Shown: positions 17,774 through 52,467 of the stretch, one piece after another
How positions within the stretch are numbered: position 1 is the stretch's first letter
Layout: every line of letters begins with the position of its first letter
Assembly: GCF_000003815.2 (NCBI RefSeq)
Contig: NC_049983.1
Location: 658,524-722,523 of the forward strand
Reading direction: 5' to 3'
Length of the DNA: 64,000 nucleotides
Origin: Branchiostoma floridae
Taxonomy: Eukaryota > Chordata > Leptocardii > Amphioxiformes > Branchiostomatidae
Program-made: the position numbers and the translations under genes
The notes under the pieces: generated by a model
The model's input: the letters and a program-made list of their open reading frames with translations, nothing else
What the model was told of the DNA's origin: nothing
Database searches by the model: none

Positions 17774-20700
17774 TCAGATAAAAGGATGCTCCAGGACTCC
17801 AAGGTCAGCGTTGTCGTCCGCTGGGTCGTTGATGCGTCTGATCGTTTCTTCCTGCTGTCGGCGACGTCTGATCGCTTGTTCCTCCTCTCGGCGTCGGGCT
17901 TCCCGTTCAGCCTGAAAAAAACACCTAATAAACACCCAATAACGTGGCAATAAAATTGTTGCCATGGCGACGGTTTCATTGTTTTTAAGTATTAATTGTT
18001 GTCTGAAGCATCTCTGAAGCTATCTACAGTCGAAATATTATGGAGATCCGTCAACCCGTTCCCGAGGTATTCCTGTCTAAAGGGATGATGCAACTAAAAT
18101 TCCTGGTATGTCTGGAAAAAATTCATGAAAAAAACGGACGCAAGGCTAGCCCCTGAGGCGTCGCCAAAAACACAGCTTCAACATATAAGCATAATTTCTA
18201 GTGTTTGCAACGATTTTCAAAACAAAAACTCTATGGCATTAGCAACTCATCACACCCTATCATAATGATAATGGTAGGTAACAGTAAATAGGGAAAACGA
18301 AAAGAGGAGGAAAAAAGGAGATGTCACACAGATGTATTTACCTCAACCCTCCTTCTGATTTCCTCTCTCTCCTAAATTGGAAAAACAACAAGAGTTCTGG
18401 ATAAACTTTTGACATAAACGCTCATAGAACACATCATACTAGTATTGTTATGGTTGTGACAGCGAGTATCAATCCTTCGTATTTTAATTTCAGAGGATCA
18501 AAGTAACGAATTCTAGACTGTACCCTTTGCCGTCTCAGTCGCTCCTCTTCTTCCTGAAATGGAGATACGGATACAGTTGAATTCTTCAAGAGTGATTTCA
18601 CCAATATATAGTCTCTATCAACTGTTGAGAAATGAAACAAGAGCGCAACGTACAAAACAGAGGATAGCACATACAATATAGGATCGATGATCTGTCTTAA
18701 ACCTTCGTAGTGGCAATCTATTGTGTGGAGAATAGAGGAAGACTAGCAAGATTGTCAGCAATACTGAACAGTACAGACCTGTTGTCGCCTTGCCGGTCTC
18801 TCCTCCTCCAGTTGTCTGAACCGTGCGCTCCGGCTGCTGAGGGCATTTCTCAAGTGATCTGCCTGGTCTGAACTCATATTTAGGGTCCTCAACTGACCGG
18901 AGCTGAGGACAACATGACATGTACCGCCCAAAAAACTGATTTCTTCAATTTTGGATACAGGAATCACGTCAATTATATCATTTCGGGCGTAGATCAAGTA
19001 ATTATTCGCAACAAAAAGCCTGAAATTTTCTTCGTTGACGATTGCGTAGACTTCATCCGAGAAGAGAAGTTTTTCCTGTAGCTTCAGAGCAGCCAATTCG
19101 TAAATAGACAAAGAGGTGTTCACTTGCCAGCCTTCTGACTGAGCAATGTGTTTTAGTGGTTCAAGAATTCGTTTCTGAAATTCGGTTGATCCGAAAGAGG
19201 TCAACATACGAGAAGAAGACACCCATATCTGAATAATTTCACAAATGCTAAGCCCAGACATCATGGCAAACAAGATGGCACCAATCATAATGGAAACTTC
19301 AAAGCGTTTGGTAGGAACATTAGTAGCTATGTCTTCAATAGTTATATAGGGCGGTGGACTACTAAACACAGAGTATGGGTTGCATGTATCCAATACCAGA
19401 TCCATATATTCTGCTTTTTTATATACACTGAGTGCACTAAAGTCTGTCAGAAAGCCGACCAAAACGTGAGACTCAGTGGCGAAATTAAAGTATTTTGGAT
19501 CTGATTCGTATGCCGTCGATATGAGAGAAACTAGTCCGGACTTTTCCATGCCACGGAGGTAATGCTTTTCCACGCCAATCGCCCCTAAGATGGACATAAG
19601 TTTTTTCGATGGCATGGCGCTGAAGTTGATTGGATGTCGCACGGAATAACTAGGATGGGAGTAAGTTAGTGGCCTCATGACCACGAGTTGGTTGATGTTT
19701 GGGTCGTGAGCCGCGTGCTTCTTAAACTGGAAGATCATGCGTTTGCATCTGTCACTGCCACAGCCAACATCGATGGTTTCGAGACGTATGGCGGTGCCGT
19801 GGTGAACCTGAACAACGGAAGGAATCATTGAGTAGTCCTTGTCAGACTGTCTCTATTGACTATCATAGTCAAGGAAAGCTAAGCGTTTGCGTTTAGGCGT
19901 GGGCTGGCTAACCCTAATGATGTCACGGAGTGAAGGGTACAATTACTTGCCCACTTATATGAGCTTGAACTTGAATTTCTTTTTAATCATACGGCGGCTA
20001 TTTCTCACCGTGTCAAGAGTTAGAAAAAATCAGGGGCCGGCCAAGCCCACATTTAGCCCGATAGCAACGGGGAATCTCGGGGCCACGGGGTCAAGCAGGT
20101 GTTACGTCCGAATTTTTAAAACAAAAAAAAGCCCGTGAACTATCGGACAGCGTTCCTTTTTTCTAAGCATTACGAGGATGGAATCTTCAAACAGCTACGG
20201 GGTAGTCGAGTATATTCAGCATGGCATCATACGCTTCTTAAACAAACATTCAATTTTCTTGGTTTGGAAAATGACGACAAGACAATTATCTCGTCTCAAT
20301 TCAGCCCAATGAGGATCTAGCTATATCTACAATATTTACTGGTTCATTGTGTCTTCGCTTGGAAATTATCCGGATTCATTTCGGCAAGATAATAAATAAC
20401 AGACACAGAGTGCTTACTACTGTAAATGCAGAAACTTTCTCGGTAGTTTAATGTTCGCGGTTTTCACAGCGGCCGCTTCACCGCAAATTTAAAACCACCG
20501 CGAACATTTTTCCATGGCAGTAAGAGACTACAGTGCATGGTGCTACAGCGAACTTAAAACCACCGCGAAATTAAATCCCCTTGAAATTAAATGCATGCCC
20601 TACCTGAACGTACTGTTTCGACAGGTTCTCTGGTCGTGAGTCCACAATCTCCTGTTCGCTGAGAACAAACGGCCCGTTCTTCACATTGTACTGGTAGCGT

Positions 20701-25731: not shown

Positions 25732-28700
25732 CCGCGCTGCAGCCACTGGAGCAGGCAGTCCTCGTGGTACTGGTGCCTGGCCGGGCAGGGAAACTTGATC
25801 ACCCTTTCTCCTGTGCAGCGTACAAATGTCAGCGTTACGATTGACTTTCCACTGTTTTCGATCACAACACAGGCAAAACTGTGACACCAAGCACACCATC
25901 CTTCCCACCTAGCAGCTGGAAGTAGAGCCTATCAGTAGTCACCTGTGAAAGCTACCACCAAAATCTTGATAGCTAATTGGTATCAGTTGTTTAAAACAAA
26001 ACAGTGATAACCAGTTATCTAATGTTTCTATCATTACCGGTATTATGAAGATTTCACTAATGAGAAAAGTCTCACTGTAAAATTTATGCCTCCTTCTAAC
26101 CTTATACTAGACACTACACCGTGGACTCTACTAGGCGACCCTTTTGGTGTAATGTGCCCCTTTCTGGTGGCACTTCAGTTCTATTGCAACTTTTCTCAGG
26201 AAGTCTACAAAAACCGAGTTCAATAGAACTGATATGCTATTACCTATCAGTTTTTCATTCTCATTTCCTCTTTTCTTCCAAGAAATGATAAGTGTCCATG
26301 AACACTTGTATCAGGTCGTTAGGTCGCTGAATACCAAAGTCAGTCTTGAAGTAAGAAAAAAAAATTGGTTGTGGACTTTGTTATTCAAATGCTGAATCAG
26401 CCTGGGACTGTGACTAATATAGTTGTATCATCTATAACGTGCACTTATCTAAACTCAAAGATAGTAGTATACTGGTAGCTTTAATATCAACGAGAATGAT
26501 ATTGTGACGGAGAATAGACCATTTACCTTCCTTCATGTCTTCTTGGCAAATGACACAGTTCTGTTCGGTATCCAGCTCGAGTATGAAAGCACTTTGTCTC
26601 ATCTCTTCCGCAGCCTCCTCTGTGGCAGGACGTTCGCCCGCTGTGTGTCAAAAATGAGCAACCCCGTAACTCTTCGTGCACTTTTCCTTACAATACTCCT
26701 CTTTGTGGATCATGCTATCATTGACCAACATCGTGTATACTGGATAATGAGTATCAATAGATTAAAAAAATGCCTTGGCCGAGATATTCAAAGACATGCA
26801 GATTCAGATCAGATAGACTTTGAAATTAGGACATTTTTACAAATTATCCATGAAAATGAATGAATGAAGACCTTTATTGTACATTCATACCCACTGGGTT
26901 TAGTACAGGTCACAACAAATGATACAACATGATATAATGATACAATGAATCTACACTACTCAAGGATCGTATTCTACTGCGTACATTCGGCTTCTTCTCG
27001 TTTCTTTGTGATATTGAAAATGTAAGAACAGATATGCTTTATAAGTAAAGGTTTGTCTAGATTCATAAGGAATATAAATTTGTCTATATTACTTAGTTGT
27101 ATGAAGTGGGGGAACATGGATTCTATTAGTCTGTAGAGTTCAGCTCTCTCTTTCTTGTACAAACTACATTCTACTACAAAATGGTGTTCGTCTTCTAACT
27201 TATCTAGATTGCAGTATCTACATATTCGTTGTTCTAGAGGAGTGCGGTTATGTCTTCCGGTTTCGATGTGTAATTTGTGGCAACTGACTCGTAGTTTTGT
27301 GACGGCCGTCCTGTGCCGAATATTGTCAATATCCAGGTATTGTTCCACATTATAAGTGGACTTGAACAGTCTGTAAGACCTCAATTTGTTTTTAGCGGAT
27401 CCACCTTTGTTGTCATTGTGTATCTCTCTTAGAAAAGTTTGAAAATAAATGTCTTTCAGACGCTGATTGATAGAATTGATAATTTGAGACGAATTTGTAT
27501 TGTGCTGTAGAGGACAATGCCATACATAACCATAGCCGCATTCCTCCAGTGATTGGCGAACTCCTGACGCCCAACACTTGGCTCCAGCCTTGTCTAAATC
27601 TATCTGGCAAGAAAGAGCGTCTGACTGGAAACTGTCTGCTGGTACTTTCTGGCGAAGTCTAATTAAGTGTTTAATAGCATTTAGGGAGGCTTCCAAATGA
27701 ATGGGGAACCTCCCTAACTCGGCTCTAGCGGCGAGGCCACTTGTGGATCTTGGCACGTGTAGGGTTTGCTTACAGAATTTTAGATGTATTGTTTCAATAG
27801 GACAGGATTTGGGGCTTTTAACAGAACCCCAGATTTCCGATCCATAGAGAATTATGGGCTTAACACATGTATCAAAAAGTTTGTTTCTGACAGACAAAGG
27901 AGCATCGGCTTTGTCTAGGGATTGATTTATCCCGAATAAAGCTTTCAGACCCTTACTGTACAAGTGTTTGTTGTTCGCCTTGAAAGTACCCGCAGAATTG
28001 ACAACAATACCTAAATAACAATAGTTTGTCACTATTTCAACAGGATTGTTCTTATACATGAAATACACATCTTTTGGTATACGACCACCCCTAGTGAAAA
28101 CAATTATTTTTGTTTTCCTAAGGTTCACATTTAGGTGCCATGTTTGACAGTATTCTTCTAGTCTATTCAAAGAACATTGTAGACCTTGTTTGGATTCAGA
28201 GAAAAGAACTAAATCATCTGCATACAATAGACAAGAGACACGCTTACTGTACATAGTTGGAGGGTTACAAATATCATTATCAAAGACAGATGTAATATCA
28301 CTTAAAAATAAATTGAATAAAGTTGGGCTTAAATTACAACCCTGTCTGACACCACAGTTTGTGACAAAAGGTTCAGTCAGACCTTGACTGTATTTCACAC
28401 GATTTGTAGTTTTTGAATACATGTCTTTGATAGTTCGAAGAAAGTTGCCCTGTATACCTAACTTGTTTAATTTGTAAAGGAGGCCATTTCTCCAGACGGA
28501 GTCGAACGCTTTACTAAAATCTACGAAACATGCAAAGAGACGGGAATTTTTACTTAGATACTTGCTAACTAATGTACTTAACACGAAAAGATTATCTGTA
28601 GTTCTAAAGTTCTTCCTAAACCCTGCCTGGTGGGGTTTGAAAAGACTATTGTTTTCGGCATAACTAACTAAGCGATTGTTTAATATAGAGGAGAATAGTT

Positions 28701-31700
28701 TACCTAAGCAGCTAATTATGGAAATTCCGCGGTAGTTGTCTGGGAGAGATGGGTCGCCGGATTTGTGAATTGGAACAATATGGCTAAGGGACCACTCCTG
28801 TGGGTAATACCCGTTTTGCAGACAATTGTTAAAAAGTTGCAGGAGTGGCGTTTGAAGTACCGATTTACCAAATTTCAACATTTCATTTAAGATCAAATCA
28901 TTTCCACTCGATTTATTGTTCTTGAGGTTTGAAATGGCATTATGTAATTCTTCTGAAGTTATAGGGGAATCTAGAACAGATGGATTAGTAGCGGAGGACG
29001 ACGGATTTAGTTGATCGTTTTCCGGAATTGGAGAGTCGTTTTTACCATTATTAGGGAGTTTGTCTAAATTGCTAAAATGTTCAAACCACTCTTCTTCTGA
29101 GATTTGGTTATTTTCTTGCGTTTTCGTCGGTTTTAGCTTATTAACTAAGTTCCAAAAGGCGCCTGGATTTTTGTCTTTGAGGGAAGACAATTGGGTCATG
29201 ATTTGTTTGTGAAAGTCTGTTTTCTTCTTTTTTATCAGTTTTTTAAATTCTTTCTTTCTTTTGAAATATCTTCCCCTTATGTCGGAATTAAATGGTTGTT
29301 TGGATAGTAAATATGCTAGGTTCTTTATTTCACGTTTTAGTTCGTTACAACTCTTGTCAAACCATTGTTTATTTTGTCGTAGCTGCGGGTGTTTCTTATG
29401 TTTAGTTATCTGTACTGATAGGGATTTGAAACCAACGTCTCTCAGGATTGAACTAAATTCAGAAACAAAGGCTTCTATTTCTCCATTAGATTTTGTGTCC
29501 TTCGTATTTTGTGATGAGAGTGAATTCAGTCTATCGATAAAATGAGATTGAGAAAGGATGTGGTTGAATTTCTGTGCAGATTTATCATCCCAATGAAATC
29601 GTTTTGGAGCGGGATTTCTTTTACGCTTTTGTTGTTTTTCATGCTGGTTTTGATGGTCTGTGTTTGATTTAATGAAGACTGATATCAGGCAGTGATCTGA
29701 AAAGACAGTTAGCGGATGAATTTGAAATAATAAAATGTTTTGCAGAAACGATTGGCTGGAAATTATGTAGTCGACCGTGCTACTACCGTTTGGTTGGTGA
29801 CAGGTATAGTTACCTTGCAGGTCCCCAGCCACCCTGCCATGAAAATGGGATCATCAGTAGTAGACTGAAAACTCTTGGACATGCTTGGGGGAAGGGGCTG
29901 GCGTGGATGCCATGCTCTCTTAACGTGACAAGGAGAGTTGTAAGTCAGTAAGAGAAACGTAGTAAGAACCGTGGGCACACCAACACCCACCTCTTTCAGC
30001 CAGGCTGGCGAGAAACGCGTTGATGCGTCTGATCGCTTCTTCGTGCTCACGGTGGCGTCTGATCTCTTCTTCCTGCTCGCGGTGGCGTCTGGTCACTTCT
30101 TCCTGCTCACGGTGGCGTCTGGTCAATTCTTCCTGCTCGCGGCGGCGTCTGGCTTCTTGTTCAGCCTGAATACATACACGTACATATTCACAAAACTAAC
30201 TTCATAATCTCGATCTCTGCTGTCTGATACGATTGAGGAAAACTTTACATTTGAACTTGTGATACATATCGCTGGCCGCGAAGACGGTTAGGCCCCCTTT
30301 CCACTAGACGGCGATCGCGCTTCCTTCTGACTGCGACCTACATAGGATATGTGTAACCTTCACTTTCATACTAGGTATATCATACACAATGTAAAAGAGT
30401 GACCGAAAAGACAACAAAACGCACAAATTGTAAAAAGACTCGGTTTTTTTCAATACAATTCGTTGAGCGATCTGTCAAATTTTAGGTCGCAGAGAGAGCG
30501 CGGCGAGAGCGCCGTCCTAGTGGAAAGGGGGTATGAGCGATACTTATTTCGTTTTTTTTAGTGTAATTCGTGCCAGTGAGTATTCAACATAGGTAACATG
30601 ATTTGTAGGAGTGACTGTTATATGTTGGTTTCATTGCCAATGGGGTACTACAAATGTATTCATGTAAAGAAGTTATGTTTTAATTGGGACTTTGCAACTC
30701 GGTGGTACTACAGCATGGAACTAACTTCTTGGACTCTAAGGTCCTCAAGAACGACTTTTCACTTGCATTCTCAGTTAACCTTATCTTAACGTCGATGAAG
30801 TTAGACATCCAGGTAATAAGATACGCCAAAAAGTAGTTACTCAAGGAACTGGATATGATTTTGGAAACGGTCAGACGTTTCATATCCAGTTGCTTGAGTA
30901 ACTGCTTTTAGGCGAACCTTATCTTAATTTTCTGATAACAGTTGAGCAGAAAATCAACACCCGAGTGGGGTCCATTTGGACCCCATGCGTAAACTTTGAA
31001 GTGCCATTTGAACATTTTCAATCTGAAGAAAAATTCCTTCCGTGACTTTGTCAATCAATATCTGCTATACCTTCTCCTAAGTTTTTACGAAGATTGGTAC
31101 ATTACTGTGAAAACTATAAAGAAAGTCTGTGTTCAGTCGTCAGCAAAAATGTGCAGTTTTTAAAACAAACTTTTGAGACTAACTCCTTAACTACTTATTA
31201 TAGGACCACCAAACTTTCAGAGATTGATAAACATGTAAAACTAAATCCTCACAAAAATTTCTGTGTCATCACTATATAATATGACGACATTATGACGCCA
31301 TTTAGCTTATAAGGGCGGCCATCTTGGATTTTGACCAATGACGTCATGAAATTAGCATAAATTATAAATTCTAAATTATGAAAATTACATTGAATTTCAT
31401 AGAATTTAATTGTTGTAAGAAAACAAGTGTAGTTTACCAAGAAAACCTTGTTTAAATCGAAATTTGCAAATTTTGGCAAAAATATGCCTGACATAATTCC
31501 GTTGCCATGGCAACCCCCAAAAATGATAAACTTATTTTAATGACTTTAAAATTTTGCTAACAATATGTTGTGATATATAACCAAATTTCGTAGCTTTATC
31601 TTTACCCGTTTATGAGTTATACGCCATAAAAGTTGCTCAGGACCCCAAAATTCTCCTCTCTGGTCAGAATAGGCTTAGTGCAAAACTGGTCCTTCTGATC

Positions 31701-34258
31701 TTTTACATAAATTATGATAATAAGCAGGAATTATCAACACCTTAACATGTCAAAATATTCCTCTTACATTGACAAAGCAATGTATGTACAATGATCACTG
31801 ATAAGAATTGGAATTAAGGTTTTATGAACAAAACATTTTAGGGTCCGTTTGGACCCCACTCGGTCATTTCAGTCGCAAAAAAGGTCGGGTGCTTGAGGGT
31901 TAAGCGCGCAAATCTGAGAAAGGAGATACGTTGACTTTAAAGTTAACATGATCTAACAGTTACATAATGGCAATCTATCGCTGTGAAATATAGAAGCTGT
32001 TAGATTAGTAGAAATCCATTAAAACAGACCTGCTGTCTCCTGACCCTCCTCTCCTCCTGCAGCTGTCTGAACCGTGCGCACCGGCTGCTGAGTACATTCT
32101 TCATGTGACCTGCCTGTTCTTGACTCATATGTAGGATTCTCAACTGACCGGAGCTGAGGACAATATCGCACGTATGGCCCCAAGTCCTGATTTCGTCAAT
32201 TGTGGACACAGAAACCACGTCAACAACATCATTTCTGACGTAGATCACGTGTCTGTTCGTAACAAAAAGCCTGAAATGAGCTTCGTTAACGATTGTGGAT
32301 ACTTCATCTGAGAGAATTTCTTCCTGCAGCTTCAGAGCAACCAAGTCGTAAACAGACAAAGAGGTGTTCTCTCGCGGACCTTCTGACGGGGCAATGTGTT
32401 TTATTGGTTCAAGAATTAGTTTTTGAATTTCGGTTGATCCAAACGAAGTGAAGAGCCGAGAAAAAAACGCCCATATCTGAGCAATTTTCAAAGCGTAGCA
32501 CACTATCTTCATCACAAAATAAGCGTAGAGAATGGCACAAAGGCCAAGGATAGAAAAAATGGTGACGTATGGGTCAGATGTATTCAAAACGAGATCCATA
32601 TATTCAGGTTCTCTGGTTACACTGAGAACACCAAGTACAAAGTCTGTCAGAAAGCCGACCAAAACGTGAGACTCAGTGGCGAGATTAAACTCTTTTGGAT
32701 TTGAATCATATGCCTTCGATATGATAGAAACTAGATCTGATTTTTCCATGCCGGGGAGAACGTATCTTCCCATGCCTATCGCTCGTATGATGGCCATGAG
32801 TTTTTTTACTGACATGACGCTGAAGTTGATTGGATGTCGCACGGAATAACTACGATGGGAGTAACGTAGTGGCCTCTTGACTACAAGCTGGTTGATGTTT
32901 GAGTCGTGAGCTGCGTGCTTCTTAAACTGGAAGATCATGGGTTTGCATATGTCCATGCCACAGCCGACCTCCTTGGTTTTGAGACGCAAGGGTATGCCAT
33001 GGTGAACCTAAACAACGGAATTCATCAGAAATTATTGGAGCCCTTGTCGTACTTTCTGTAATGTGACATCATAGTCTGTTATATGTGTTAGTTTGATAGT
33101 CTGAGAAAAGAGGTAAATAAGATCATCCCCATGCTGATTTATCTCACTGAATAGCATCTGGTCGTGACAGAGACGAATAAAAATTGTAATGATAAAGTGT
33201 AGTTCCACGCTCAGAACCGCAAACGTACAGAGAAAAGGGAATTGCTGTGCAAGAACGACTGCTGGACAGTAGACCCAATGATGAAGTTTATCCAATATTT
33301 TAGCAAACCCTTGGCTATGTGAGTAAAAGTGATCATTTTGTTGCTAAAGTCGTATATTGTATATATATATAATGTATATATATATTATAATGGCTCTCCC
33401 GTGTGGGATAAAGGATGGAAATGAAGGAATTAATGAATTAATTAATGACCTTTATTGTTCCTATTTTCCCAATCAAGCTAACTACAGGTCACAATAAAGA
33501 CAAAACATACATGTATCTTAGATCTAGCCTAGTATAGACTTCTTCTCGCTTCTTGATACATGTAATAGTGAAAACTGTGAGATTGCATAAGGAATATGAA
33601 TATTTCAGTGTTACTTATATGTCTAAAGTGAGGAAATCTACTTTCTATGTGATTTTTTATGCCTTACCTGAACGTACTGCTTCCACAAGTTGCCGCGAGT
33701 AGTATCCACAATCTCCTGTTCGCTGAGAACGAACGGCCCGTACATGGCGTTGTAAAGGTAGCGGTGAACTTGTGTAAACCACAGGAATACCATGATGGAC
33801 ACAGCGACCACCATTGTGTACTAAAGGAAAGTCAATTTTATTCCTACTTTGTACCTGTGTGATTCTTTTCCAGTAGACGGAAATTGGCAGTTAGACATGT
33901 AGTAACATAAATAAAAAATATAAACGGAGATTAAGGTTGACTTTCAAACATAACTAATATTCTAGAACAGATAATTAATCTTTTACCATTGACCGTTTAA
34001 TCATTCATTCATCAATTCTTCATTACTCTACAGCCCCCTTCAACCAAAATTTTCTCTTTTAACATACTCTGTTCAACGTTAACGCCAGATCCTAATAATT
34101 TAGCTACTCCAGTTTATGATAAACAGAAATACGGTGAGCCATGAATAATGTTGTAGTAATAAAACCTTGATGTGGTCCCAACATTCCTTCATCATCTGGT
34201 TTCTTTTCCAGCGGATCGGTTCAGCAAAAATGGTGTCCCAGCCGCTTCGCAAGGCCAT
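25732..34258 (-). CDS. Membrane RING-H2 E3-like protein, family copy 2 (3' end in assembly gap)
   Basis: Minus-strand exons: 34166-34258, 33668-33820, 32030-33007, 29991-30165, 26527-26640, and 25810 running into the gap at 25731. Residues 1-31 carry [10 protein letters not shown]; a membrane segment lies in exon 2 (VVAVSIMVFLW) and a second in exon 3 (FSILGLCAILYAYFVM). Exon 3 also has the SAP-like motif (KKLMAIIRAIGM...MEKSDLVSII) and the PH/GRAM-like stretch. Exon 4 is a coiled coil of four REQEExTRRH-type repeats ending ...LASLAER in phase 1. The exon at 26640 starts in the same phase and reads to CVICQEDMKEG; its own phase-1 end joins ERVIKFPCPARHQYHEDC. Together these give a RING-H2 finger, Cx2C...Cx3Hx2Hx2C. 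A 2978-bp LINE sits in the intron between the coiled-coil and RING exons. Likely a membrane-anchored ubiquitin ligase; domain calls are by eye. The three 5' exons and exon 4 are firm; joining to the RING exons rests on phase and order. Confidence 0.7.
26859..29836 (-). mobile_element. 5'-truncated non-LTR retrotransposon with 11-bp target duplication
   Basis: CCATGAAAATG occurs at 26848-26858 and 29837-29847, exactly bounding the element. A single 952-codon frame (26974-29832, minus) is intact. It opens at the GDLQ end of an APE-type endonuclease (SDHCLI near residue 45), has a full reverse transcriptase with FSKAFDSVW, GVRQGCNLSPTLF and catalytic LLYADDLVLF near residue 540, and ends with a CRYCNLDKLEDEHHFVVEC zinc-knuckle-like motif. 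The 3' tail is (ATTC)n. The open frame and perfect duplication point to a young insertion. Clade not assigned. It lacks most of the endonuclease, so it is unlikely to be autonomous. Confidence 0.92.
30290..30533. mobile_element. Foldback MITE (family B), copy 2
   Basis: Ends GGCCCCCTTTCCACTAGACG and CGTCCTAGTGGAAAGGGGGT. It shares its whole interior plan with the copy at 17360, including GAGAGAGCGCGGCGAGAGCG. It sits just 5' of the coiled-coil exon of copy 2, whereas the first copy is 3' of the last exon of copy 1, so the two insertions are independent. Confidence 0.8.
30826..30908. repeat. Hairpin repeat TAGTTACTCAAGxAACTGGA
   Basis: An inverted repeat (AGTTACTCAAGGAACTGGAT / ATCCAGTTGCTTGAGTAACT) around AAACGGTCAGACGTTT, itself a near palindrome. 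A related hairpin is nested at 60302-60358 and a weaker trace lies near 7885-7930. Confidence 0.6.
30961..31903. mobile_element. Non-autonomous DNA element related to the TTAA element at 56132
   Basis: Inverted repeats CCGAGTGGGGTCCATTTGGA (30961) and the matching TCCGTTTGGACCCCACTCGG near 31842-31863. The right edge GGG-TTAA (31897-31903) fits a piggyBac-type end; the left edge lacks it. The interior shares GCCATCTTGGATTTTGACC, ATGACGTCAT and GTTGCCATGGCAAC with the 56132 element. It lies in an intron of copy 2. Confidence 0.6.
33419..33660 (-). mobile_element. 3' fragment of the same LINE family as 26859-29836
   Basis: Shares ACCTTTATTGT, CTACAGGTCACAA, CTTCTTCTCGCTTCTT and the AATATGAATATTT...CTAAAGTGAGG order with the 3' end of the large LINE, in the same orientation. 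Heavily decayed and without a frame. It lies immediately next to the donor of exon 33668-33820. Confidence 0.65.
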
Positions 34259-39410: not shown

Positions 39411-39984
39411 GTGTCACATTTTAATCATTCAGAATGAGATCGGTTTTATTTCGATATTTACTTGATGGTGTGTAGACCCACAATTTTAAATTGTAAAGTT
39501 TAGTGGAAATTGTGATAAGTATGTTAATGCACTTAGGCAGGACATTCCATTGTTTTAGTCCTAAGCGCCAGCCTCCCCTGTAGAATGTACGAGGCAATTT
39601 AGTCCTCGGACTATAATCTTGTACACGACATTGTGTGTTTAAATAAATAAACCAGTTCTCTCTACTTGATAAAATACGGAGAAAGAAACGATTCGGAAGC
39701 TGTCGTAGACCACGTCATGATGTTTGTATGTTCAACATGTCATCGAAACATTAATTATGCCCGCACTTATTTCTTGTTATAGATATTCACCGGAACTCAC
39801 TACCTGACCCTCTCTTGCACTCACGCAGCGCACGGAAAACCATATTCGTGCCGTCTACCCCACCCCTCCCTCCTGCAACCACAACGAACACATACACAAG
39901 TATTTTCTACAGCCATGGGTTTCGCATACGTGAGTAGTATAGTAGGAGTGCGCTGCTATTATTTATTCAGGCGCAAGCAGGCGC

Positions 39985-40180
39985 AGGTCAAAGGTCATCA
40001 CCTGCCGATATAATGTATTCAGGCGGAGCAGGTCAGAGGTCAGATATGATGTATTCAGGTGGAGCAGGTCAGAGGTCAAATATGATTTATTCAGGCGCAG
40101 GTCAGAGGTCAGATATAATGTATTCAGGCGCAGGTGAAAGGTCAGATATTATGTATTTAGGCGGGGCAGGTCAGGGGTCA
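39985..40180 (+). promoter_or_regulatory. Minisatellite of six DR1 nuclear-receptor elements, left arm
   Basis: Six copies of AGGTCA-N-AGGTCA or near variants at 39985-39997, 40030-40042, 40066-40078, 40099-40111, 40132-40144 (first half AGGTGA) and 40168-40180 (second half GGGTCA). Spacing is 33-45 bp, each within a TATTCAGGCGxAGCAGGTCA unit. DR1 is the established site for RXR, PPAR-RXR, HNF4 and COUP-TF. All lie upstream of the Bcl-2-like ATG at 40312. Function is inferred from sequence only; the short open frame across the repeat is not a gene. Confidence 0.7.
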
Positions 40181-40311
40181 GATATCATATATTCAGGCGG
40201 AGTAAGGTAACTATGACAACCCCACCCCACCCCAAATGAACCCCCCCCCTCTCTAATCGTGAATGACATGCCCTTATTTGGCCTGGTTAAGTCTACTGAG
40301 ATCAGTCTTTA

Positions 40312-40812
40312 ATGGATGCGCTGAAAGCACAAACAACAGACGTCTTTCGTCAGTTACTATATCACAAAGCCCCAGACTTGTTTCCTGAATACAGACACCC
40401 CAGTTCGGTGACGTACGTAAAAGTAGTACAATGGGTGGATGTGATCTCGGCGGAAGAGGAATATGGAAAGATTATTGACAGCTTCATGGACAACGTACCC
40501 AACGCGAGGGATGGGCTGAAAACGGTGCTCGAAAAAGTACTGCAAGAGCGACGATTAAACTGGGGTCGACTCGTTACCGCAATGGCTTTTGCCGTGGACG
40601 TATGTGTCAACTCGCACGAACGGTATGAAAGAAATACCGATGCCATCTCCACCGAGGTAGCAACGTTGATTTGCGACTATGCGGGAAACTGGGTATTACG
40701 CCAACTTGGATGGGACGGATGGCTTGACCGTCGTCGGCACGACAAGTACCCGTCGTTTGTACAGTGTCTCTGTTGGCTTCTCACTGCACGCGTTTGCATC
40801 ATCGTGACGTAG
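40312..40812 (+). CDS. Intronless Bcl-2-like apoptosis regulator, left palindrome copy, 166 residues
   Basis: A continuous frame from ATG to TAG. Residues 79-93 (ERRLNWGRLVTAMAF) fit BH1 and 126-138 (NWVLRQLGWDGWL) fit BH2, with the expected helix between them. An N-terminal helix (residues 8-20) could act as BH4. A clear BH3 with Leu-x3-Gly-Asp is not visible around 35-60. Residues 149-165 are hydrophobic and Cys-rich and could anchor the protein in a membrane, as in most Bcl-2 proteins, which control mitochondrial outer-membrane permeability. Length is near the short end of the family. Metazoan Bcl-2 genes usually have an intron in the BH2 region; its absence suggests a retrogene or transferred gene. 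The ATG context is weak. Direction of action (pro- or anti-apoptotic) cannot be told. Six DR1 elements lie 130-330 bp upstream. Confidence 0.83.
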   Translation: MDALKAQTTDVFRQLLYHKAPDLFPEYRHPSSVTYVKVVQWVDVISAEEEYGKIIDSFMDNVPNARDGLKTVLEKVLQERRLNWGRLVTAMAFAVDVCVNSHERYERNTDAISTEVATLICDYAGNWVLRQLGWDGWLDRRRHDKYPSFVQCLCWLLTARVCIIVT

Positions 40813-40934
40813 ATTTTGCACTGAACACGCCCGAACATGCCCGAGCATGTTAAAACACGCCCACGCACGGTACGCTGGTTGGCCAACGCTAGATGTAATG
40901 TTGATTTACATAATTGCATAAGATTATTGCTTTG

Positions 40935-41365
40935 GAGTAGCTATACGTGTTGCTCCGGAGTAAAAACACTGCTCCGGAGCAGTTTATTTTGCTCCGGAGT
41001 AAAATAAACTGCTCCGGAGCAGTTTATTTTACTCCGGAGCAGCAACACGTATAGTTACTCCAAAACAATGTTTCACTGCATGTACATACAGATATGTTCG
41101 TACGTACATGACAAATATACTAACTTATTACACCAAATATACTTACTCATTTACTCCGGACCAGTATTTTTTACTCCGGAGCAGTGTTTTTGCTCCGGAG
41201 CAACACTATACGTTACTCCAAAGCAATGTTTTACTGCATGTACATATAGATATGTTCGTACGTGCATGACAAATATACATACTTACAACAAATATAGTTA
41301 CTCACTTACTCCGGAGCATACTCCGGAGCAGTGTTTTTACTCCGGAGCAACACGTATATCTACTC
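40935..41365. repeat. Palindrome loop packed with CTCCGGAG repeats
   Basis: About ten copies of CTCCGGAG or GCTCCGGAGC, plus a nested inverted repeat (CTATACGTGTTGCTCCGGAG / its inverse at about 40941-41055) and a two-unit direct repeat of about 150 bp (TACTCCAAAxCAATGTTT... at 41055 and 41213). Each unit carries CATGTACATA and TTCGTACGT palindromes. Confidence 0.85.
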
Positions 41366-41487
41366 CAAAGCAATAATCTTATGCAATTATGTAAATCAAC
41401 ATTACATCTAGCGTTGGCCAACCAGCGTACCGTGCGTGGGCGTGTTTTAACATGCTCGGGCATGTTCGGACGTGTTCAGTGCAAAAT

Positions 41488-41988
41488 CTACGTCACGATG
41501 ATGCAAACGCGTGCAGTGAGAAGCCAACAGAGACACTGCACAAACGACGGGTACTTGTCGTGCCGACGACGGTCAAGCCATCCGTCCCATCCAAGTTGGC
41601 GTAATACCCAGTTTCCCGCATAGTCGCAAATCAACGTTGCTACCTCGGTGGAGATGGCATCGGTATTTCTTTCATACCGTTCGTGCGAGTTGACACATAC
41701 GTCCACGGCAAAAGCCATTGCGGTAACGAGTCGACCCCAGTTTAATCGTCGCTCTTGCAGTACTTTTTCGAGCACCGTTTTCAGCCCATCCCTCGCGTTG
41801 GGTACGTTGTCCATGAAGCTGTCAATAATCTTTCCATATTCCTCTTCCGCCGAGATCGCATCCACCCATTGTACTACTTTTACGTACGTCACCGAACTGG
41901 GGTGTCTGTATTCAGGAAACAAGTCTGGGGCTTTGTGATATAGTAACTGACGAAAGACGTCTGTTGTTTGTGCTTTCAGCGCATCCAT
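41488..41988 (-). CDS. Intronless Bcl-2-like apoptosis regulator, right palindrome copy, 166 residues
   Basis: Mirror image of the gene at 40312. The protein is identical except residue 44, Ala here and Val in the left copy (GCG versus GTG). BH1, BH2 and the hydrophobic C-terminus are unchanged, and the frame is intact. The two genes converge, with 3' ends facing each other across the loop, so readthrough transcripts would be complementary. Near identity means very recent duplication, ongoing gene conversion, or an assembly artefact. Confidence 0.83.
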   Translation of the reverse strand: MDALKAQTTDVFRQLLYHKAPDLFPEYRHPSSVTYVKVVQWVDAISAEEEYGKIIDSFMDNVPNARDGLKTVLEKVLQERRLNWGRLVTAMAFAVDVCVNSHERYERNTDAISTEVATLICDYAGNWVLRQLGWDGWLDRRRHDKYPSFVQCLCWLLTARVCIIVT

Positions 41989-42122
41989 TAAAGACTGATC
42001 TCAGTAGACTTAACCAGGCCAAATAAGGGCATGTCATTCACGATTAGAGAGGGGGGGGGGGGTTCATTTGGGGTGGGGTGGGGTTGTCATAGTTACCTTA
42101 CTCCGCCTGAATATATGATATC

Positions 42123-42318
42123 TGACCCCTGACCTGCCCCGCCTAAATACATAATATCTGACCTTTCACCTGCGCCTGAATACATTATATCTGACCTCTG
42201 ACCTGCGCCTGAATAAATCATATTTGACCTCTGACCTGCTCCACCTGAATACATCATATCTGACCTCTGACCTGCTCCGCCTGAATACATTATATCGGCA
42301 GGTGATGACCTTTGACCT
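42123..42318 (-). promoter_or_regulatory. Minisatellite of six DR1 nuclear-receptor elements, right arm
   Basis: Reverse complement of the left-arm array, from TGACCCCTGACCT at 42123-42135 to TGACCTTTGACCT at 42306-42318. It lies upstream of the minus-strand Bcl-2-like gene starting at 41988. Confidence 0.7.
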
Positions 42319-42453
42319 GCGCCTGCTTGCGCCTGAATAAATAATAGCAGCGCACTCCTACTATACTACTTACGTGTGACATAAGGTCACAACAATGCAC
42401 CAATACATTAATCGGTCACTATTTCTATCCTCTCTGTTCCGTACTAAACTCAC

Positions 42454-43369: not shown

Positions 43370-45809
43370 ACATACATACATACACTATCATCGTCACAAA
43401 ACCGACGAAGAGAAGGACCAGGAACGTTGGGACAGAAATAACTGAAAAATATGGGTCGGATGCATCCAAAACGAGATCCATATATTCGGTTCTTTTATGT
43501 ACCTCGAGAACACCAAAATTTGTCAGAAAGCCGACCAAAACCTGAGACTCAGTGGCCAGATTAAATTATTTCGGATTTGAGTCGTATGCCGTGGATATTA
43601 TAGAAACTAGTTCTGATTTTGCCATGCCAGCGATGACGCTCTTTTGCATTCCAATTTCCCCTATGATGGCCAGTAGTTTTTCCACTGACATGACGTTGAA
43701 GTTGATCGGATGACGAACAGAATAACTCTGATGGTTGTGTGTGTGTGGCCTCTTGACTACGAGCTGGTTGATGTTTGAGTCGTGAGCTGCGCTCTTCTTA
43801 AACTGGAAGATCATGGGTTTGCACACGTGAAGGCCACGGTCACAAAACACCTCGGTGACATCTAGACGTAAGGCGGTGCCGTGGTGAACCTGAAATGGAA
43901 ATCAACGTGAAATGAATCATTGTAGTCCTTCACATACTTTCTGTAATGTCCATAATAGTCTGTTATATGGATTATAATTTTAACGGCTGAGAAAAATAAT
44001 ATTTAAGAGCTTATCTTCAACAAAACAGACCAACGCTATATCTGCAGTATTCACAGTACCAGGTAAATTCTAAGAGCGAGATCTTTTCGGCAAGCAAAAT
44101 TAGTGCTGCGTACGTACCTAAAACCTGGAAATGGAACTGGACTTGTAAAAGCATTTAGGTCCAAGTAAAAACCTAGAGGTTGGGAACCAGGTCCGGACTT
44201 AAAAGCTGTCTCTTACTTATATGTTCTAAACCATCTAAAACCTTCCAAAGATAGTGAAATTTGTACCGAAAAAAAGGCAAAAACATTGCTGGGTTTGTCT
44301 TTATTACTGACCTTTTGTGTTTACTACAGACTGTATATGATTTTGCATATATTTTTCACATTGCATGTCAAATTTATGCTAACATGCAATTTCATATGAA
44401 ACCAAAAAAAATTAGCGCACATATGCAATGATGGGTTTCTGTAAATGCATTTAAGTTCGCGGGGATTTAATTTCGCGGTACCGGGACTTTTCGCGGTGGA
44501 TTTAATTTCGCGGTAACACCATAGACGGCAGTCTAATACCACAATAGAAAAAATGTTCGCGGTGGTGTTAAATTCGCGGTTAAATGATCGCCGCGAAAAC
44601 CGCGAACATTGATCCACCGCGAACATTTCTGCATTTACAGTAATGTCCGGACTGACAAGTCCAGACCTGAACCTGAACTGCTGGACCTGAATCCGGACCT
44701 GCACCTAAATATGAGTTTAGGTATGCAGCACTAAGCACAATTTATGGACAGTGGACAGTGCGTATTCTCTATGTCTTACCTGAACGTACTGTTTCCACAG
44801 GTTATCTGGTCGTGTGTCACAATCTCCTGTTCGCTGAGGACGAAAGGTCCGTACAGCACATTGTACAGGTAGCGGTGACCTTGTCTGGGCCAAATGATCC
44901 CAACACTATCACCACGAAGACCATTGAGATCAAAATAGCTTTCTGGAGGAGAGTGAAGAAGATTTTCTGGTGTTGGTGTCTCTGGACATGCTATGGTCGA
45001 GATTTTGTAGCTTCATTCCATGGTAATGTGACATATGTAATTGAGAAAGTGAAGAATATTCATAGATGGAATTATGCAAATAGAGATTACTGCATGATTA
45101 ATAATGAGAAAACATCATAATACCATTGCGCTTAATCACAGAAATTTCATACTTGTGCTATTTGAATATTACATGTGCAAATTATGACCTCATTTGCTTA
45201 AATTATCATAAAATGCTGGTATAACCATAATCCGTTTTGTTAGGAGATGACGGCCATACTTTGACAATTTCTGTTAATTGTGTGAAAAAGATGAGCAGAT
45301 GCTTTGATGTATGCAAATGACCTCATTTGTATAATAAATGTGAAACGATCAAAATAACTTGGCATGTATAGGGTCGTGGAACTCTAGTTATCTTCTAGTA
45401 GACGAGTAGACGGACGTGTAGATACTTTCCAAATGCAGTAGCATAAATAACAAACTCAAACGGAGATTGAGATTGCTTTTCAAACACATGAATTATTCTT
45501 GAACTTAGGATTGCTATTCATTAATGACCCCTGATTGTTCTCCCACTCAACCTCCACGAAAAGCGGCCTTGATATGGATCAAATATCGAATTTTAATAAA
45601 GGTACAAAACGAAAAATCAAAACAGTCCATCGAACGTTTACCGTCGGCAATAGCTCTTTTACCATCGGCTGTTTAAACTTTCATCCATTCATTAATTAGT
45701 TCATCATAACTCAAACCTTGATGATGTTCCAACATGTCCTCATCGTCTGGTTTCTTCTCCATACGATTGGTTCGGCAAAAATGGTGTCCCAGCGGCTTCG
45801 CGTCGCCAT
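43370..45809 (-). pseudogene. Family copy 3, broken: first three coding exons only
   Basis: Exon 1 at 45717-45809 is intact ([20 protein letters not shown]). Exon 2 at about 44780-44945 keeps [12 protein letters not shown] and LWKQYVQ but has a one-base deletion after EIV and another frame break upstream. Exon 3 starts at 43889 (VHHGTALRL) and keeps the SAP-like motif, but has an in-frame TAA at 43566-43568 where copies 1 and 2 have a sense codon. The frame then continues (FNLATESQVLVGFLTNF) into the second membrane segment and ends near 43370. PH-like, coiled-coil and RING parts are missing. Several independent lesions make a non-functional relic the best reading. Confidence 0.8.
44439..44640. 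mobile_element. CTGTAAATGC foldback MITE (family A), copy in pseudogene intron
   Basis: Starts CTGTAAATGCATTTAAGTTC and ends TTCTGCATTTACAG followed by TA. Same orientation and internal order as 5428-5635. Lies in the second intron of family copy 3. Confidence 0.85.
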
Positions 45810-48417: not shown

Positions 48418-51400
48418 ATGTTCTCCCTGTGGCTAGGAATAGCAGTGTCTCTTCTAATAACGCTACCCATCTGCAAAGGCGAAACGGTAAGTATATTTTA
48501 ACGTTGCGTCTTGTGTATGCTGTTAACCGTGGGAGGTGTTCTCTTGGTTAGAGTTATTGACAAATAATCCAAAGATTCTGGGCTCAAATAAGGCCAGACG
48601 TTTTGTTAAGACAGTGCTAAGGTACAGGTGTGTGTGTCGGTGTGTGTGGAGACCTGTGCTTGTTGACAGTGTTCAGGAACTTAGGTTGCTTAGCACAAGA
48701 GGGACAAGACAAGTGTTTTCATCACCAAAGTTTACCGAACGATGCAACCAACGCGCCAAACCAAATATAAGAACTCGGAAGACAATGAAAGGAAGTCTAT
48801 ACAGAATAATTTACTTACTAATTGTTACTATACTTACTTATTTATACAGAATAAAGATTATCGATGAGGGAGTAGGTTGAAATTGCTAGTTCTTTGGGTC
48901 CCCTAGGGGAAGAAGATCTCCATGCCCCCCTCCCCCTGATAACTTGGGCTGGGCGAAATCGCTGTGACACCAGTCTCACCCAGCTTGTTGCGCCTAAAGG
49001 TGGTTTGCCACCGATGGGAAACAAACAAACACTGTAGGACCTAAAAGTAGGTTCTTCAAGTTCCAAGCAAGCCTAAACGGATGGGCATTAGAAGCCCTGA
49101 AAAAGGTCAGTTTACAACCGCAAAGTCATAATGTATTACGTTGTTGCAATTTCGACATAGAAAGAAAGAACATCAAATCATTGTGCCGGGGGCAGCCCCA
49201 TATATGTTCCTACACCCCTATATGTTAGTATCAACGTTAGGGGTAGGGTCTTGGCAGCAAATGGCTCTCTGTACAAACATGTATGGTTGTAATAACCAGA
49301 AGTGCCATTAAGTTAAAAATTTTCAGTGACAGTAATAATGGTCAGTATTGTCTAAGATGGTATTGGCCCTATCAATAATGGTTGCTACAAAACATTGCAT
49401 TTCATACGTCGTTACCATCCGCCATCTCCTTATTTGTTTTAAATTTGGTTGCACGATTCTCCAAATTTACGGAGTCATGCTCTAGATACAATGACAAACA
49501 TACCAAACAGTTTATATAACACTGAGAAAAAAAATCCAGCAACTGCACCTAATAGTTTGTGTAACGCAAACTTCCCTGTCTAGGGCATTAACGGGCCCTT
49601 CATAATCTTAAGCCAGGTGGCACAAGCTAGTTACAATAATCTAATGTGTTGAAGTTCAGGATTCAATGTAACAAATATGTGAAAATGAGCTTTCTTTTTA
49701 AAAGCCAGTGGAGGTCATTGAACTACAGCCGACGCACAGGCAGTATTCGGTAGCAGCATCAAGGCGTAAATTCACGGCGACCGAAGAAACATCCGACTTA
49801 TACAGTCTCGGAACGAATGTATTCCTTTACCATTCAGCATAGTTTCCAGCTCAATGTAGCTCACAGAGGAGTTTTAAGCTTAAAGAAAAAAGCATGTTTC
49901 AGAATGCCACCAACATGCCGCCAACGTACTGCGATAAATGGGAACCAATAGGCGCAAATGGGCAGGAACTAAACACTAACTAATAAACGCCAACAAGCGC
50001 CATCAATTCTGTTAAGAGTCAGATGTCTGTTTCAGGGTTTGTTCTTATGAGTCTACAAACCTAATTTGATATCATTAAACATACATAGTACGAAAATACA
50101 ATGACGTAAAATTTGGTAAATAGTTTGTATCCGTTCCACTAGGTCATTTCTGTTACTGTCTTTCAAGGTTATACTTATACTTTATGATATGTTACCTATG
50201 TTGTACGAAGTATGATTAAACATCTTTGTATCATTAAAAATCTCTTTTTTATGCATTCAATCATTTCACATTAGTTTTAATTCATTGAAAACGCTGCGGT
50301 ATTCAATAACCTGAGAAAAGTAAAACGTACTTTGCCGCTTGGCACCTCAACTGTGGGCTGACTTACTGGAGAGAAAATATAGATTTCAAGGAATACTGCA
50401 CATTCAATAACTCAGTTTTCGTATGTGTTGTTTTCCCTCTTCACATACAGGTGAAGACCAAAGTGTTGGTCCTGGGTGCCGGGATGGCGGGAATATCGGC
50501 CGCACGTAGCCTCAACCAGAGCGGCCTGACCGACTTCATCATCCTCGAAGGTACCAACCGTATCGGGGGTCGAGTTTGGAAGGTGCCGTTCGGCGGAAAG
50601 ACCATTGACATCGGCGGGAACTGGGTTCATGGGGTCTCCGATGACAATCCGGTATGGGCGATGGTTAAGAGTTATAACATGACTGGAACCTTTAGCAACT
50701 GGGACAACATCACGGTAAGGAACAGCACTGGTCAAGTTGTGACCTCACAGTGGCACACAGTCCTCGCTTCCCTCGACGAACCATCTGAGACCGCCTACGA
50801 CCTAGCTGTTGAGAGAAACGCGACAGGACAACCCGATATGCCGCTACGAGCTGCTCTGAAGTTAAGCGGTTGGAACCCAACCTTGCCCATGCAGAAAGCT
50901 GTTGAGTACGTCAGCTATGACTGGGGTTATGGAGAAGAGCCAGATGTGTCGTCTTTGCTCAGGGGGGAGATCGAACCGACAATCGAGCAGTTTGGCGAGG
51001 ATGATTACTTTCTAACAGACCCACGAGGATATGTCTACATCATCGATCAAATGGCAAAAAGCTTTCTCGCAGGAAATGACCAACGGCTCAAGCTCAACAA
51101 AACGATCACCAGCATCCAATGGGGGAACAATGGTGTCACTGCCACCACCAAGGATGGTTCTAGATACACCGCCGACTATGCTATCGTGACCTTCAGCATG
51201 GGGGTTCTCCAAGACAACTTGGTCCAGTTTGTCCCGAGTCTGCCCGATTGGAAGCGAGAGGCCATCTTTCGAGTTCGCATGGCCTTGTACACGACGATCT
51301 ACCTGAAGTTTCCATCTAAATTCTGGGACGACGATGAGTACATCGTGTACGTGGCGGAGCGCAGGGGCTACTACACCGTGTGGCAGAACATGGAGGCTGA

Positions 51401-52467
51401 GGGGTTGTTTCCAACAGGGACCAATCTTCTTTTAGGTCAGTCATAATAACTTTCTCACATTCACTCACAAAAAGAAAAGAGTTCTCCTTAATTCTAACAT
51501 CACAAAACCCACACATATTAGAAAATGTGGGATCTTTCGTCTCCCACTGTCTTTGAAAATGGAGTCGAACCCAATAACCCCGCCTCTAGAGTTTGCTTTT
51601 ACTAGCTTTAGACAAGAGTAAACACTTGTGATATTGTTTTTTTTGCACTGCAGTTGTTTGAATCCCTTATGTTACCTGCAATTATTCCACGGGCAAGAAT
51701 TTGCAATAAACTTTATATGATGATGTATGAAGATGAACAAATGTTTGGCATCCGTCAACAGCCCTAGGAACTAAAGCCCAAAGCTGTTTTTATGTTTTGC
51801 TGATAAGTATTTTGAAGGCAGTAATGTTCGCATTTAACGAGCATCATATTTTCTTCCTTAAGTGACAGGCTTTGCTCTTCTCCAGGCTGTAATGTTCTCG
51901 TTCATCGAGTTTCATTTGTGTTCTCTTTTCCTTTCAGTGACCTTGATGGATGATGAGGCACGACGTGTAGAGGCCCAGTCTGACCAAGCAACTCAGGCCG
52001 AAGTCATGGCTGTCCTCCGCACCATGTACGGAGCCGGCATCCCCGACCCTACAGACATCCTGGTGCCGAGATGGGAACAGGACCCGTTCTTCCGCGGCTG
52101 CTACGCCAACTGGGGAGTCGGCATCAATGATGAGGAGCTGCACAAGCTGCAGGCTCCTGTCGCCGGGCGTCTTTTCTTCGCAGGAGACGGGACAGGACCG
52201 CACTATGGCTACCTGCAGGGTGCCTTCTTCGAGGGAGCGAGAGTAGCTGACGCCATCGCGACGTGTGTGGGAGGAGGCCGGTGTGAGAAGGAGTACCAGC
52301 CGCCCCGCGGGGGTTGTACCTGTCCCGCTGCAGACAACTTCGACAGCCAGGCCACGGTAGACAACGGTTCCTGCATGTACCCCACCAGCAATGGAGACCG
52401 TACCATGCCGTTTTCAACATCATTCTACATTTTGTCTGTTATGATCGCAGTCAAAGATATGTTGTAA
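48418..52467 (+). CDS. Secreted FAD-dependent polyamine oxidase, 527 residues
   Basis: Three exons: 48418-48486, 50451-51435, 51938-52467, phases 0 and 1. Exon 1 encodes MFSLWLGIAVSLLITLPICK, a signal peptide. Exon 2 opens with the dinucleotide-binding motif VLVLGAGMAGISAARSL, then LEGTNRIGGRVW and the flavin-contacting IGGNWVHGV. Exon 3 has TDILVPRWEQDPFFRGCYANW and the C-terminal FAD motif FFAGDGTGPHYGYLQGAFFEG. This is the amine oxidase fold of plant and animal polyamine oxidases, which oxidise spermine or spermidine and release hydrogen peroxide. After the domain comes a Cys-rich segment (GGGRCEKEYQPPRGGCTCPA) and a hydrophobic C-terminus (residues about 510-527) that could be a GPI signal or weak anchor. 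The usual His in GEHTSxxHYG is replaced by Asp-Gly here (GDGTGPHYG). Likely extracellular; substrate not determinable by eye. Confidence 0.9.
48487..50450 (+). other. First intron of the polyamine oxidase gene
   Basis: GTAAGTATA donor and TTCACATACAG acceptor. No embedded gene was seen; short frames here look like noise. Confidence 0.8.

Follow-up and report, generated by a model that had tools for sequence, protein, structure and literature searches.

The window analysed here is a 64,000-nucleotide stretch of the Branchiostoma floridae genome (contig NC_049983.1, positions 658,524 to 722,523), in which two nearly identical Bcl-2-like genes lie in the arms of a palindrome. Rather than a duplicated host gene, this palindrome is a mobile element bounded by terminal inverted repeats (TIRs). 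We read it as a miniature, non-autonomous member of the Polinton/Maverick (adintovirus-like) family, which would have arisen by duplication of one end of a long element, been mobilised in trans, and kept a gene acting against cell death. We put the probability of this reading as a whole at about 0.85. What appears to be new is a Polinton lineage with a resident Bcl-2 gene, together with a miniature palindromic subfamily that keeps the gene twice.

The window palindrome and its copies

The element occupies window positions 39933-42370 (2,438 bp) and has the ends AGTAGT...ACTACT. Both of its flanks read TACGTG, a perfect 6-bp target-site duplication (TSD), and each arm begins with the tip AGTAGTATAGTAG. 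Self-comparison of the window gave arms trimmed to 39928-40979 and 41321-42375, with 99.2% identity. When one arm was aligned with the other, 1049 of 1058 positions were identical in an alignment starting at 39925 and ending at 40979, and two of the mismatches belonged to the flank. Within the element, the arms differed by four substitutions (40442, 40761, 40830, and 40941) and a 3-base difference in a C-run at 40240, in an alignment of 1,050 columns; identity was 99.6% when the indel was left out. The arms are separated by a 341-bp centre, on which the twin genes converge. A first-pass annotation, made from the sequence alone, had described head-in genes on arms of about 1.05 kb that encode twin 166-residue proteins one residue apart; both points held, the two proteins having 166 aa each and differing by V44A (Table 1). 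That annotation had noted neither the flanking TSD nor the further genomic copies described below.

Both genes are members of the Bcl-2 family. In a PF00452 profile search, the two proteins scored 44.8 and 45 bits against the Pfam cut-off of 31.4, in agreement with the earlier assignment. The Bcl-2 domain with BH1 and BH2 is present, BH1 reads NWGR, and the most hydrophobic stretch of the protein is its last 18 residues (Kyte-Doolittle, KD, 1.93). The closest solved structures in PDB were those of Bcl-2-related protein A1 (E 2.1e-6). Related proteins in the protein collection were only P0001 and P0002, which were 84-87% identical and came from contigs under 1.5 kb.

The search for further genomic copies that the first-pass annotation had proposed was made with the window protein in the B. 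floridae genome itself (513 Mb, 431 contigs, E up to 1e-3). At least 63 matches were merged into 49 gene copies. About 46 of these belonged to the main family and lay on 18 contigs, a count that includes fragments and is a lower bound. We fetched 30 Bcl-2 loci, including both window genes. The tip AGTAGTATAG was found ahead of the gene at all 30 loci (exact in 23, with one change in six, and with two changes in one). Full frames of 160-171 aa were present in 26 of the fetched loci, although the C-terminus of L038 was shifted; L013, L018, L023, and L030 were left out of this full-frame set as shortened or running into N. The remaining 16 of the 46 copies were partial, split, or stop-bearing matches.

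Fourteen two-ended copies, a set that lies outside the C6 pair, were scored for TSDs. The duplication matched at 6/6 positions in ten of them: the window element, C9:1.40, C1:26.98, C14, C17, C15:3.69, C5, C15:10.75, C18, and C11. The chance expectation for such a match at a given pair is 1/4,096. The duplication at C9:15.28 matched at 5/6 positions and that of the C13 pair at 2/6. The C13 tips are not simple insertion ends, because they are enclosed by larger inverted arms that are 100% identical. The same target hexamer, GACGTA, was seen at two separate insertions, C17:9991681 and C5:27583783.

Long relatives and the origin of the palindrome

Polintons carry an integrase with a chromodomain and a cysteine protease. 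Long relatives of the window element share these genes and the 17-kb size of Polintons. Inward of its right-hand Bcl-2 gene, the integrase-bearing C14 copy (16.6 kb) has an integrase (rve 1.7e-9 and chromo 1.9e-11), an adenain-like protease, and three further frames of 281, 139, and 269 aa, of which the 139-aa one is basic. The protease matched African swine fever virus (ASFV) S273R at 1e-7, and its PF00770 match (6.6e-4, 19.8 bits) was below the cut-off of 21.3. A retrovirus-like integrase together with an adenain-like protease suggests a likeness to Adintoviridae, on the basis of these genes. When five C14 proteins, integrase included, were used as queries, no match was found in the window copy (tblastn, E up to 1e-3). 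Its ends, its 6-bp duplication, and its intronless genes match the account of vertebrate Mavericks excerpted in PMC8097293, in which (AGT)2//(ACT)2 termini go with duplications of 6 bp and genes that lack introns. The earlier guess that a DNA virus or a mobile element carried the gene was borne out by a TIR element in an integrase-linked family.

The integrase was present in 12 copies at 97% or more in the genome. In 11 of the 12, Bcl-2 lies 0.7-1.3 kb from the integrase on the same strand; in the twelfth, C158, the sequences flanking Bcl-2 on both sides are kept and the gene is absent. Bcl-2 and the integrase are separated by a double-PC4 gene (PF02229 4.1e-27 in C158), PC4 being an ssDNA-binding coactivator domain. 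A complete version of this gene occurs at 11 distinct loci (12 rows, because L008 and L032 are the same place), and 10 of these loci belong to the set of 12 integrase copies. C14 and the left arm of C7 have truncated versions, and C4 is outside the fetched set. The Bcl-2 gene and the double-PC4 gene at the integrase end distinguish these elements from Polintons/Mavericks, as does the miniature palindromic subfamily that retains little except Bcl-2. The double-PC4 gene was observed beside Bcl-2 and integrase in L008/L032, L015, L016, L025, L028, L029, L033, L035, L036, L037, and L047, and a second PC4 gene, 43-46% alike, lies outside Bcl-2 in L029, L033, L036, and L037. C2H2 zinc-finger frames were seen at the polymerase-like end (L050:1772-2473 in C17 and L051:660-2996 in C15).

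Two long elements with 6-bp duplications, C17 (9991681-10008893, 17.2 kb) and C15 (3688421-3705755, 17.3 kb), were measured end to end. Each has a single Bcl-2 match, at the integrase end, and a TIR that stops before Bcl-2; the TIRs are about 0.30 kb in C17 and 0.18 kb in C15, compared with 1.05 kb in the window element. In C17, Bcl-2 directly follows the terminal repeat; in C15 the two are set apart by a second PC4 gene. The C14 copy has Bcl-2 at both ends, the left one cut by N, and the window element and the other two-ended short copies have Bcl-2 in both arms. We had considered that both TIRs of the long elements contain Bcl-2, and dropped this in view of the short TIRs and single Bcl-2 gene of C17 and C15.

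The window arm tracks the integrase-side end to about 40924, beyond which a PC4 gene follows in the long elements and TCCGGAG repeats in the short ones. The match to the window arm runs to 40924 in L012, L015, L025, and L037, and to 40884-40919 in seven others. Past 40924, the window arm continues at 97-100% in five of the seven integrase-less copies tested (L021, L022, L024, L026, and L030). The two arms of the window element therefore most probably both come from the integrase end. Given the short TIRs and the single Bcl-2 gene at the integrase end of C17 and C15, the most likely origin of the palindromes is a duplication of that end with loss of the interior. The window element has, moreover, a mosaic structure: the Bcl-2 frame resembles that of C14 (493/500), and the next 167 bases are like a short C1 copy (166/167), whose own Bcl-2 frame matches the window at only 464/500. 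This result indicated that ends were exchanged between long and short elements.

We propose that in the derived line the integrase end was copied in inverted orientation onto the opposite end, and that the terminal repeat was thereby enlarged to take in Bcl-2. The route could have been end duplication in linear, protein-primed replication, or recombination between the ends. The interior would have been lost, with TCCGGAG repeats in its place, and the product would have been mobilised in trans by an integrase that long relatives presumably supplied, leaving the 6-bp TSD.

Origin, selection, and possible role of the Bcl-2 gene

In the host Bcl-2 exons L001, L002, L004, and L005, GT stands straight after GGW behind BH2, which points to a donor site. 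The element genes have no GT after BH2 and their frames run through, so the absence of the post-BH2 intron noted in the first-pass annotation held against four of four host exons. Ten sequences, L005 not among them, were placed in an unrooted tree, where four host sequences were split from six element sequences with support of 99.8/100; the grouping of C19 with C13 was weakly supported (49.6/64). The annotation had offered a retroposed host gene as one origin and a phylogeny as a check; in the host part of that comparison the element genes stood apart from the host genes, contrary to a retroposed host gene. One host gene, L003 (C13:9100785), is an intronless Bcl-2 retrocopy. It lies between the inverted arms of L045/L046 (C13:9090800-9094300 and 9105000-9108500), in which 3,309 bp, and possibly more, are 100% identical. 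These arms have a tip of the Maverick type, a PC4 gene, and the divergent remnant of a Bcl-2 gene, interrupted by stops.

A divergent element, C19, has an integrase at 69% identity, a PolB gene (PF03175 3.1e-21), and its own Bcl-2 gene (PF00452 1e-9, 25-27% identity). The short inverted repeats, with PolB between them, suggest that the C19 integrase and Bcl-2 belong to one element. A genome query with the C19 Bcl-2 (E up to 1e-3) gave 35 matches, all of them to element copies. Since this divergent element carries its own Bcl-2 and its matches are all element copies, Bcl-2 seems to be an old resident of these elements. In the viral contig collection, from which near-genome records were possibly excluded, no relative was matched by the Bcl-2, integrase, or C19 Bcl-2 queries.

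The Bcl-2 coding sequence is under purifying selection. In a codon model of 25 frames, omega was 0.536 when compared with 1 (twice the log-likelihood difference, 2dlnL, 27.0), and in the 10 integrase-linked frames it was 0.505 (2dlnL 17.7). The 25-frame set is without L038, whose end is shifted, and in the null fits kappa was fixed at its fitted value and the tree was reused; with L038 included, omega was 0.56-0.57. Under simulated neutral substitutions, with indels uncounted, a stop-free frame was kept in 40% after 20 changes and in 18% after 40.

Viral Bcl-2 proteins include adenovirus E1B-19K and the Bcl-2 proteins of herpes- and poxviruses. The element protein resembles them as a short intronless protein with NWGR and a hydrophobic tail in a DNA virus-like genome, and differs in lying within inverted repeats, with two copies per small element; viral Bcl-2 proteins are the subject of PMC7695858, as its excerpt presents it. 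From family and motifs, the protein most likely has an anti-apoptotic action. It would sit on the mitochondrial or ER (endoplasmic reticulum) membrane by its C-terminal tail, and the BH1/BH2 groove would bind BH3 segments of host death proteins. In this way Bcl-2 could serve the parent element as viral Bcl-2 proteins serve theirs, by delaying the death of the cell hosting replication. A tentative and rather doubtful extension is that the small palindromes are selfish elements made of ends and a survival gene, which are selected to keep Bcl-2 and profit where cells or lineages with moving elements are spared death.

A Bcl-2 domain on a mobile element has a precedent in the planarian Burro Gypsy elements, where, in the excerpt of PMC6431247, the domain lies inside a large open reading frame (ORF) of a long terminal repeat (LTR) retrotransposon; the gene here is free-standing and the element is a DNA element. 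The literature search gave no Bcl-2-bearing Polinton or adintovirus among the matches listed. Here a virus-like transposon of an animal has a cell-death regulator of its own, and it does so in two or more diverged lineages within a single genome and in many datable copies. It thereby becomes testable whether Polintons act as viruses needing live host cells, and whether selection can favour an anti-death gene in an element that is non-autonomous. Counts of Bcl-2-like genes in such a genome may include genes of elements, which bears on expansions of the Bcl-2 family.

Alternative explanations and other features of the window

A chance match between the arms is excluded, because the inverted repeat is 1 kb long at such identity. 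Inverted arms are a common assembly error; the folding back of a single arm is nevertheless the least probable of the explanations weighed here, because the arms are not identical, a TSD is present, and the same architecture recurs at other sites. An intronless gene in near-identical arms would also fit a host Bcl-2 retrogene that was duplicated locally in inverted orientation, with arms kept alike by gene conversion, and L003 shows that an intronless host retrocopy exists. The 6-bp TSD, the shared tip, the copy number across contigs, the proximity to integrase genes, and the separation from the host genes in the tree make this origin highly improbable. The first-pass annotation had inferred recent inverted duplication or arm-to-arm conversion; a simple local duplication falls with the recognition of a mobile element with TIRs, whereas recent homogenisation between the arms may have occurred. 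The lack of all five C14 proteins could place the window element in a group of long-TIR DNA transposons unrelated to Polintons, but its tips, TSD length, and arm sequence are common to 17-kb elements with an integrase and a polymerase-like gene, and the C17 and C15 elements largely refute such a placement, which we regard as very improbable. It is unlikely, too, that Bcl-2 is a functionless passenger, open in young copies merely through recency. Such a passenger would suit the state of the copies (26 of 46 with frames of 160-171 aa, four shortened or running into N, and 16 partial, split, or stop-bearing), and small palindromes could be moved in trans without a gene of their own; the omega values of the 25 frames and of the integrase-linked frames speak against it, as does the C19 Bcl-2 domain, which is still above the cut-off at 25-27% identity.

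Several observations weigh against the miniature Polinton/Maverick reading that we prefer. A full open frame is missing in 20 of the 46 copies. The paired loci C7 (1/6) and C3 (2/6) lack a matching TSD, and therefore some pairs are not simple elements; C15:10.75 has two tips per side, of which the outer pair matches and the inner pair does not. Past 40924, L017 matches the window arm weakly (79.5%) and L011 not at all. The evidence for PolB in the main family is one 61-aa match to the C19 protein, and PF03175 had no match in the C17 pieces searched. No capsid gene was identified in the long elements, which were read partly; the 281- and 269-aa ORFs of C14 had no database match, and the C14 interior is partly N. 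In C19, Bcl-2 lies near the end opposite the integrase, and no AGTAGTATAG tip was found within two changes at the inferred ends. The structure model of the window protein was poor (mean pLDDT 50), too weak to support the fold. Finally, the 12 TCCGGAG-type (integrase-less) frames had an omega of 0.600 (2dlnL 7.5), mildly below 1; this weaker signal of the short copies may have been inherited from long copies via end exchange.

Table 1. Features of the Bcl-2-bearing palindrome, in window positions
Feature	Position	Strand	Basis or remark
Target-site duplication TACGTG, left copy	39927..39932		6/6 match with 42371-42376
Left inverted-repeat arm, tip AGTAGTATAGTAG	39933..40979	+	Four substitutions and one C-run difference from right arm
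33/36-bp minisatellite, left arm	40007..40202	+	Counterpart in the C17 long element lies in the TIR
Bcl-2-like gene, 166 aa, uninterrupted	40312..40812	+	PF00452 E 1.9e-11; NWGR in BH1; C-terminal hydrophobic stretch
Stretch common to integrase-bearing copies, stopping before their PC4 gene leader	40813..40924	+	Sequence comparison
TCCGGAG-repeat centre replacing the interior	40925..41375		Past 40924 also present in other integrase-less copies
Right inverted-repeat arm, same tip as left	41321..42370	-	Self-comparison and arm alignment
Second Bcl-2-like gene, 166 aa	41488..41988	-	A44, V44 in first gene; PF00452 E 1.7e-11
Minisatellite, right arm	42101..42296	-	Repeat comparison
Target-site duplication TACGTG, right copy	42371..42376		6/6 match with left copy

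Other genes were found elsewhere in the window. Diverged repeats of one gene, 79-83% alike at the DNA level, lie at 18708-19852, 31965-33085, and 43450-43969, and their frames of 365 and 335 aa had no Pfam match. A flavin amine oxidase gene (PF01593 9.5e-44) lies at 50310-51443, with a probable continuation, judged by eye, at 51862-52467. A LINE-like reverse transcriptase frame of 958 aa (PF00078 2.5e-38) occupies 26974-29850.

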